In this document: positions 8,022-9,983 of the stretch, in pieces
How positions within the stretch are numbered: the first letter of the stretch is position 1
Layout: every line of letters starts with the position of its first letter
Source of the DNA: Desulfoarculaceae bacterium
GTDB taxonomy: Bacteria > Desulfobacterota > Desulfobulbia > Desulfobulbales > Desulfocapsaceae
Direction of reading: 5' to 3'
NCBI GenBank assembly: GCA_019429465.1
Contig: JAHYIV010000011.1
Span: forward strand, 1 to 64,000
Length of the DNA: 64,000 bases
Translations under genes and position numbers: made by a program
The notes under the pieces: generated by a model
Database searches by the model: none
What the model was told of the DNA's origin: nothing
What the model saw: the letters and a program-made list of their open reading frames with translations, nothing else

Positions 8022-9983
8022 ATGGCAATTCCCTTACGCAGCGCCACTACAACGCAAGGCCGCAGGATGGCCGGGGCCCGCAGTCTCTGGCGGGCCAACG
8101 GCATGACCGAAGAGCAGTTCGGCCGGCCGATCATCGGTATCGTCAACTCCTTTACCCAGTTTGTGCCCGGTCATGTGCATCTCCATGAGATCGGTCAGCA
8201 GATCAAAAAACAGATCGCCGAACTCGGCTGTTTCGCGGCCGAGTTCAATACCATTGCCGTTGATGACGGGATCGCCATGGGCCATGCCGGCATGCTCTAT
8301 TCCCTGCCGTCCCGGGAGCTGATCGCCGACAGCGTCGAGTACATGTGCAACGCCCACACGGTGGATGCCATTATCTGCATCAGCAACTGTGACAAGATCA
8401 CCCCGGGGATGCTCATGGCCGCCATGCGCCTTAATATCCCCGCCATCTTTGTCTCCGGCGGGCCCATGGAAGCCGGTGTTGATGGCGACAAGCGCTATGA
8501 CCTAGTCGATGCCATGGTCATGGCCGCCGACCAGGCGGTCTCGGATGCGGAGGTGGAGGTGGTGGAACGGTGCGCCTGTCCCACCTGCGGATCGTGTTCC
8601 GGGATGTTTACGGCCAATTCCATGAACTGCCTCAATGAGGCCCTGGGTATGGCCCTGCCCGGCAACGGCACCGTGGTGGCCACCCATGGCAGCCGTACCG
8701 CTTTGTTTGTGCGCGCCGCCGAGCGGATTGTGGAGATGGCCGCCGCCTGGTATGACCGGGAAGATGCCTCGGTCCTGCCCCGGACCATTGCCAGCCGAGC
8801 GGCTTTTTTGAATGCCATGACCCTCGATATTGCCATGGGCGGATCCACCAATACCGTCCTCCATCTGCTGGCCATTGCCCATGCCGCCGAGGTGGATTTT
8901 TCCATGAAGGATATTGACGGACTGTCGCGGAAGGTGCCCAACCTGTGCAAGGTGGCCCCTTCCTCCCATTATCATATGGAGGATGTGAACCGGGCCGGTG
9001 GGATCATGGGGATCTTGGGTGAGCTGGCCCGGGCCGGACTGGTTGACACCTCGGTCCGCCGAGTGGACGCAGGCCAGGGACGGCCCAGTGTCGCGGGCGC
9101 CAGGGAAGGCGCAGGAGCGACCGCAGGCCAGGGACGGCCCAGTGTCGCGGGTGCCAAGGACGGCACAGGAGCGACCGCATCAACCCTGGCGGAGACACTG
9201 CGGCTCTGGGATATTGGAGCGGGTACTGCAGGCGAGGCGGCAAGGCAGCTCTATCTGAGTGCCCCGGCCTCTGCCGGTCGCAATCTGGTGATGGGCTCCC
9301 AGACAACCATGTACGCCGAGCCGGATCTTGACCGGGCCTCCGGCTGTATCCGCGATGTGGCCCATTGTTACAGCAAGGATGGGGGCCTGGCCGTCCTCTA
9401 TGGCAATATTGCCGCCAAGGGCTGTATCGTCAAGACCGCCGGGGTCGATCCTTCCATCTTTCAATTTACCGGAAGTGCCAGGGTCTTCTCCTCTCAGGAT
9501 GCTGCCTGTGATGCCATTCTCGGCGGGGTGATCAAGGCGGGCGATGTGGTTATCATCCGCTATGAGGGGCCAAGGGGGGGGCCGGGGATGCAGGAGATGC
9601 TCTATCCCACCTCCTACCTCAAATCCGTCCATCTGGGCAAGGAGTGTGCCCTGGTCACTGATGGCCGCTTCTCCGGCGGCACCTCAGGGCTCTCCATCGG
9701 CCATGTCTCACCCGAGGCCGCGGCCGGTGGGGCGATCGGTCTGGTTGTTGACGGGGATACCATCGAGATTAATATTCCAGAGCGGAGCATCAATGTCATG
9801 CTGTCCGTGCAGGAACTGGCCGCAAGACGGCAGCAGGAAGAGCGGAAGGGCAGCCGGGCCTTTCAGCCGACAGACCGGGTGCGGAACGTATCCACGGCGT
9901 TGAGGGCCTATGCCCTGTTCGCAGCCTCGGCAGACAAGGGGGCGGTGCGGATCCTGCCTGGAGAAGAAGGGGATCTGGACTGA
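8022..9983 (+). CDS. ilvD: Dihydroxy-acid dehydratase with an inserted repeat
   Basis: Catalyses the dehydration of 2,3-dihydroxy-isovalerate and its isoleucine homologue to 2-keto acids, the third step of branched-chain amino-acid synthesis, in the cytoplasm with an Fe-S cluster. Cluster and metal motifs are [11 protein letters not shown] (near residue 122) and [18 protein letters not shown] (near 186). [13 protein letters not shown] and GHVSPEA motifs are near the C-terminus. The protein is 653 residues. Enterobacterial IlvD is 616, and the excess is almost exactly the 36 residues encoded by two tandem 54-bp repeats (residues about 350-385, [10 protein letters not shown] twice), inserted between the two domains. 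The start ATG opens the typical [14 protein letters not shown]-terminus. It stands alone, not in an ilv operon. Confidence 0.96.
9069..9176 (+). repeat. Two tandem 54-bp palindromic elements inside ilvD
   Basis: Copies 9069-9122 and 9123-9176 share GCAGGCCAGGGACGGCCCAG and GTGTCGC and end GGAGCGACC. Each folds as GTCGC..GCGAC around an inner stem. The copies differ at four bases, two of which (9098/9152 and 9111/9165) exchange a C:G pair for T:A within the inner stem. The length is 18 codons without a stop, so the ilvD frame is kept. Confidence 0.95.

Follow-up and report, generated by a model that had tools for sequence, protein, structure and literature searches.

The ilvD gene in the window analyzed here (the first 64,000 nucleotides of contig JAHYIV010000011.1 of a Desulfoarculaceae bacterium) carries two head-to-tail copies of a 54-bp element that is dispersed through the genome. 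Judged from sequence, this is a real dispersed palindromic element with translated-looking, in-frame insertions in conserved genes, a variant of known behavior. The 36-residue insert in IlvD probably consists of a tandem pair of copies of a small, non-autonomous mobile element, translated with its host gene; it is most likely near-neutral selfish DNA and not part of IlvD function. Comparison within and between genomes shows the dispersal, the presence or absence of exact multiples of 54 bp (54n) between species at matching gene positions, the presence or absence of the unit at a single joint in a host repeat and the occurrence of a C before most copies. Features of the window are collected in Table 1.

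The insert in ilvD

The two units follow each other in the ilvD reading frame, as the preliminary description of this DNA had stated, and share 50 of their 54 bases. Of the four positions that differ, two are partners in a single stem pair, which is C30-G43 in unit 1 and T30-A43 in unit 2. Thirteen of 14 same-genus IlvD open reading frames (ORFs) encode 611-619 aa, so that the 36 inserted residues account for the excess length of the protein, which had been proposed from comparison with a 616-residue IlvD. The remaining ORF (L103, 576 aa) belongs to an IlvD that seems to be split; residues 1-350 and 444-649 match in different open frames (G010:C63). Matches to Pfam and to solved structures are interrupted at the insert, the N-terminal domain ending at residue 349 and the C-terminal domain starting at residue 442, which places the insert in the linker between the two domains.

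The insert is missing from all 23 aligned IlvD relatives (15 of the same genus, six of the same family, and two of the same order; the alignment took in 23 of 29 IlvD loci). The same 36 residues in homologues, named beforehand as the result that would speak for an old protein feature, did not appear. An old conserved feature of IlvD, or a minisatellite local to ilvD instead of an interspersed element, would fit the tandem arrangement of the two units; absence from every aligned relative, 88 core matches in the genome, and the recurrence of the unit elsewhere, both within other genes and within a host repeat, leave this explanation next to no probability, and it was rejected.

Dispersal through the genome

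Sought through the genome, as the preliminary description had suggested, the core of the unit (GGCCCAGTGTCGC) has 88 matches with at most one mismatch in 2.84 Mb, compared with eight for the reversed control. In the window there are nine matches with at most two mismatches, against 2.15 expected; none of 100 shuffles reaches nine. Setting aside six of the 88 matches (four chance-like, one strongly diverged, and one half element) gives 82 units, of which 47 lie in a palindromic host repeat and 35 elsewhere. Thirty-three of these 35 are in open frames of at least 200 codons, and 28 are counted as in-gene. The further claim that the element occurs in other genes and between genes was confirmed within the window itself, by the copies in hypE, hypF and the host repeat. 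An assembly artefact is an unlikely source of the units, because diverged copies occupy identical sites in several metagenome-assembled genomes (MAGs).

Insertions in conserved genes

In-gene insertions were found by joined protein queries, alignments and Pfam scans, and the gene names used here are a reading of those matches. In addition to ilvD, units lie inside the Mur ligase gene murE (two), a RecB-type helicase gene (three), recD, holB, mutL, mfd, hypE, hypF, pepN, rlmL, a radical-SAM gene (two), cbiD, cbiE/T, and genes for a histidine kinase and an amidase. Nucleotide alignment finds a gap of exactly 54n bp in all aligned relatives for ilvD, hypF, and holB (5/5 each), for the radical-SAM gene, pepN, and murE (4/4 each), and for recB (1/1); by the same method the hypE unit is absent from one of three relatives and the recD unit from three of four. 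The matching stretch of cbiD is 18 residues shorter in 4/4 relatives, and the Pfam match is divided into two stretches in holB, recB, cbiD, and mfd. For the units in mfd, rlmL, the kinase gene, cbiT, the amidase gene, and mutL, some or all of the relatives aligned contain a diverged counterpart (two of five for mutL, three of four for rlmL), so these units are older and decaying. The insert in purF lies close to the N-terminus, possibly ahead of the true start.

A ThiI-like gene (G000 C24:40307; L196) contains the first half of a unit only; G008 has a full unit, and two other relatives have none.

Two adjacent hairpins

The 54-nt unit folds into a hairpin of 4 pairs followed by a second hairpin of 5 plus 4 pairs, with loops that are mostly AKGGAY in both. 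Across 38 of the 109 distinct units, 93.3% of cells are paired in this fold, and double-change cells number 29 compared with 11.3 in shuffles, a value that 0 of 500 shuffles reach. The covariation score reaches 0.167 and does not exceed 0.092 when the partner is slid; pairs 30-43 and 31-42 carry most of the covariation. The element had been described as palindromic, which is right insofar as it folds with compensatory changes; the fold consists of two adjacent hairpins and not of one palindrome. No known RNA family was found in 8900-12300, where the only hit was a sub-threshold microRNA, or at nine further loci, most of them with copies outside the counted genes.

Hairpins with compensatory change are also what would be seen if the units were kept because they are helpful, as mRNA-stabilizing hairpins or as structural or regulatory loops, and spread by selection on their hosts. 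Units occur in several genes for replication and repair (recB, recD, mutL, mfd, and holB), and a bias of this kind is also reported for intragenic repetitive extragenic palindromes (REPs; PMC3733652). Whether a given gene carries the unit nevertheless differs from one sister species to another (hypE and recD), and old copies decay; a benefit to the host is an unlikely driver of the spread.

Reading frames and translation

Among 34 non-composite units, the three sense frames are stop-free in 14, 27, and 32 units and the three antisense frames in 32, 33, and 31. The 22 in-gene events are confined to three of the six frames (12, 5, and 5 events); the first of these frames is antisense, and the third reads QAMDGPVSxAPxxxQERP. 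In a narrower set, 16/16 events fall in the three favored frames, for which the chance with open-frame weighting is 1.5e-6. Since a target rule of C before the unit (see below) could itself favor certain codon phases, the chance for the 16 events was recomputed with codon composition and the C rule and is 7.4e-6, or 1.5e-4 after multiplication by 20 for the post hoc choice of frames. Events and frames were compiled by hand; cbiD_2156, C3, C24:30799, purF, C54, and the half element at C24:40307 are outside the narrower 16, the half element being included in the 22 events and outside the 82 units, and C5:78026 was left out of the frame-chance test. Six copies were not counted as in-gene (C5:77986, C18:7180, C21:16067, C39:7776, C63:8009, and C65:112006); adding five of the six gives 25/27 in favored frames.

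Other members of the genus show the same preference, as 18 of 19 Pfam-supported unit-carrying ORFs among those scanned use the favored frames. Two further units (L061) stand in an unfavored frame of the recD ORF, ahead of its first domain, and in a favored frame of a longer, overlapping ORF in L236. Peptides of the unfavored frames are Arg-rich, Trp-containing, or Pro-rich. The preference for three of six frames suggests that the peptide is translated, and this bias is the main evidence that unit peptides are made and judged by selection.

Inserts that are transcribed and then removed or skipped before the mature protein is complete (by RNA excision, ribosome bypassing, or protein splicing) would also explain how hairpin-forming sequences come to sit in conserved genes. 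In-gene copies are instead stop-free, have lengths that are multiples of three, and show the strong three-frame preference expected if the residues are made; moreover, inteins are far longer than 18 residues, so a unit is much too short to be one. Removal or skipping is accordingly quite improbable.

Insertion and a possible mechanism

In 20 of 22 non-composite arrays the first unit directly follows a C (p = 5.5e-10), a count that leaves out second units of arrays and unit-like flanks; an earlier count of 24/26 included two second units. At loci outside the genus the preceding base is C in 16 of the 17 tallied, which represent only about 10 distinct flanks (nine of the 26 such loci, without an exactly placed start, were left out). 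A gain of exactly 54n leaves at most the shared C as a target duplication. Together, the preceding C and the exact gain suggest a defined joining step with no multi-base duplication.

Under the proposed mechanism, the 54-nt unit would fold as single-stranded DNA or RNA into its two adjacent hairpins, which have similar loops, and a trans-acting enzyme would recognize the hairpins and move or copy the unit. Joining would take place after a C, and arrays would arise by addition of a unit beside an existing one or by slippage. Within genes the unit would persist because 54 is a multiple of three and because some frames encode uninterrupted peptides that can be tolerated in a loop or linker; the insert would then be translated and would decay by substitution and frame-keeping indels.

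Spread by recombination or by template switching between hairpins during replication would require no dedicated enzyme. Tandem arrays of near-identical units (three in recB), several arrays that end on the right in a partial unit, and the lack of a transposase beside copies are in keeping with it, while the near-constant C before the insert and the exact 54n blocks suggest defined cutting and joining. Spread without a dedicated enzyme is the less probable route, with a likelihood well below even.

Observations opposing this interpretation

Several observations weigh against a translated mobile element. No mobilizing gene was found: the five Y1-transposase loci of the same genome all lack a nearby copy, and of 28 same-genus Y1_Tnp loci, these five included, 27 are without one, the other having a copy more than 2 kb away (28 of 75 same-genus matches were examined, and some stretches ended at contig ends). 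Movement is deduced from comparison and translation from reading frames. Of 38 units, 18 do not form pair 30-43 and six do not form pair 31-42. Some inserts are old and common to several species, and a fifth murE relative, in G016, has one diverged unit at the site. Among the uncounted copies, C63:8009 (one of three tandem units at that locus) and C65:112006 lie in unfavored frames by longest ORF; the one exception among the 19 Pfam-supported ORFs, for an M20-type peptidase of a genus relative (L238:3-992, minus strand) and cut by the end of the stretch, also reads its unit in an unfavored frame. Hydropathy and disorder scores give no clean split between favored and unfavored frames. The AlphaFold2 model of IlvD, with a mean predicted local distance difference test score (pLDDT) of 51.7 and blocks at residues 351-380 of pLDDT 23-27, is too poor to place the insert loop or to support surface exposure.

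Twelve Y1-transposase loci from other genera likewise have no copy nearby. An association with REP-associated tyrosine transposases (RAYTs) was considered and was not found at the Y1-type transposase loci examined.

The host palindrome and its empty joints

All 47 nested units sit at one joint of the host repeat, TTTCGTTAC-unit-GGCTCCTTATG. The repeat is apparently intergenic; seven of the 47 occupied copies are in open frames of at least 200 codons, mostly near an end. Genome-wide, the joint occurs without a unit at 28 sites with at most one mismatch and at 49 sites with at most two, and at three unoccupied joints (C9, C17, and C50) the host repeat around the joint was read. In the window the repeat regions at 1867-1971 and 45742-45923 have the form AATAACATGGCCAT...ATGGCCATGTTATT. 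The host repeat around 47 of the 82 units may itself resemble a miniature inverted-repeat transposable element (MITE).

Range among relatives

DNA searches find the element in 14 of 16 other same-genus genomes and, among the other 41 relatives, only in G038 and G055. A covariance model has matches in 33 of the order's 257 genomes, in 13 of 69 genera, 15 of the 33 belonging to the same genus. A contig named 'Geobacter sp. UBA5608' has a copy whose peptide context is the one seen in this genus.

One genome of another family, G067, has 43 matches. Of 29 units examined there, 15 have a host repeat's left flank in common, and 14 of these its right flank as well; each of the 15 is 52 nt long, and this host palindrome (attcctt-unit-ttcgatattc; loci L310-L329) differs from the one described above. 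Four other loci in G067 carry arrays with nine units of 54 nt and one each of 57, 51, and 53 nt, 11 of the 12 being a multiple of three; most of the array units are 54 nt and have a longer second stem. Three of the four array loci were scanned, with a Pfam-supported host gene at two and none at the third. Another two units, located away from long ORFs, measure 53 nt. A tentative reading, with clearly less than even probability, is that a Desulfobulbales mobile-element family has adapted to genes in at least two bacterial families, with genic sub-lineages of a translatable length (54 nt, 18 codons) and open frames beside a host-nested sub-lineage that remains at 52 nt in the same genome.

Comparison with known elements

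In-frame palindromic inserts are best known from the obligate intracellular Rickettsia and Wolbachia. The Rickettsia palindromic elements (RPEs) were reportedly described by Ogata et al. in 2000 and 2002. The literature searched, which was mostly open-access and represented by titles, beginnings of abstracts and passages, with subscription journals mostly outside it, contains no account of the 54-bp element, in agreement with the earlier suggestion of an undescribed Desulfobacterota counterpart of RPEs.

RPEs are small palindromic repeats of about 100-150 bp found between genes and in frame within conserved protein genes (PMC2229807, PMC3767692, PMC10969869). The 54-bp element resembles them in lying in frame in conserved genes, in being absent from orthologues, in keeping the frame open, and in its palindromic fold, here of two hairpins with covariation that 0/500 shuffles reach. 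It differs in length, a unit of 54 nt (two hairpins, 18 codons) often arranged head-to-tail; in lacking the ATGAC motif of RPE-4, -6, and -7, which occurs in 0/109 units and in 1/109 on the other strand; and in its host, which is in another phylum and, from the names of the MAGs, probably free-living. The likening to RPEs made at the outset therefore stands for behavior (dispersal, and insertion in many genes with the frame kept) and fails for length and motif. By comparison with the published descriptions, the element is a counterpart of RPEs in behavior.

REPs of the GTAG and CGTC types are 20-40 bp long with a tag at one end and in some species are intragenic, many of them in replication and repair genes such as recBCD and uvrA; intragenic REPs are listed in bacteria other than Rickettsia and Wolbachia, and some of their dimers are nested in longer palindromes (Di Nocera et al., 2013, PMC3733652). 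The 54-bp element shares with them short hairpin repeats in genes, including those for replication and repair, and its nested copies resemble REP dimers within palindromes. Units of the genus differ by beginning with GCAG (92/109) and ending with GACC (87/109); the REP tags GTAG, CGTC, or GGAG are at the 5' end in 0/109 and at the other end in 2/109 (counted without the TGTC and CCTC variants of CGTC), and GTAG is internal in 25/109. GTAG REPs flank RAYT genes, whereas the 54-bp element was not seen to do so at the Y1-transposase loci examined, and the CGTC REP has one stem of 8-9 bp in place of the two hairpins found here. As many units outside the genus begin with GACG (22 of 29 in G067), the reverse complement of CGTC, the element may be distantly related to CGTC REPs.

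MITEs such as NEMIS and ERIC (PMC10969869, PMC2229807) are similarly non-autonomous and dispersed and can fuse in frame with genes. The present unit is smaller, has two separate hairpins and no terminal inverted repeats spanning it, and gives a net gain of exactly 54n bp with no multi-base target duplication visible.

What the 54-bp element adds is in-frame palindromic insertion on a large scale in environmental bacteria, with steps from fresh to decayed copies, a strong frame bias, and empty orthologues (15 same-genus genomes for ilvD, one to five relatives for other genes). The addition of new peptide segments to essential-type proteins by selfish DNA thereby becomes open to testing, and IlvD, MurE, HolB, and RecB are available as natural pairs with and without the insert.

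Other features of the window

Table 1. Copies of the 54-bp unit, their ilvD host gene and related repeats in the 64,000-nt window.
Feature	Position	Strand	Remarks
ilvD, dihydroxy-acid dehydratase	8022..9983	+	653 aa including insert; PF00920 35-349, PF24877 442-641
54-bp unit 1 in ilvD	9069..9122	+	in-frame repeat; absent from ilvD of relatives
54-bp unit 2 in ilvD	9123..9176	+	one compensatory stem change relative to unit 1; absent from ilvD of relatives
Unit nested in palindromic host repeat, apparently intergenic	11931..11984	-	TTTCGTTAC-unit-GGC..
Unit in hypE (gene 33266-34363, minus)	33356..33409	+	antisense reading GRSSSVHGASDTGPSLAV; absent in L201, present in L188 and L193
Unit in hypF (gene 36653-39085, minus)	37026..37079	-	absent in 5/5 aligned relatives
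Strongly diverged or partial copy, outside unit count	29064..29117	+	core match
Host palindrome without 54-bp unit, in repeat region 1867-1971	1904..1971	+	empty joint TTTCGTGAC-GGCTCC
Second, more diverged empty host palindrome, in repeat region 45742-45923	45855..45923	+	unit absent

A separate family of palindromic 82-nt repeats (CTAACCCCGATGAACGGGATAAGTGCCTTTCGCAGATTATTTTCTTG...CAAGAAAATAATCTG...) has five copies in the window, at 11999-12080, 35532-35613, 45778-45859, 49195-49276, and 55423-55504; in some cases a member is joined to the palindrome that hosts the 54-bp unit. The window also contains a 136-nt direct repeat, at 35669-35804 and 36452-36587, whose two copies are 93% identical and 783 bp apart.
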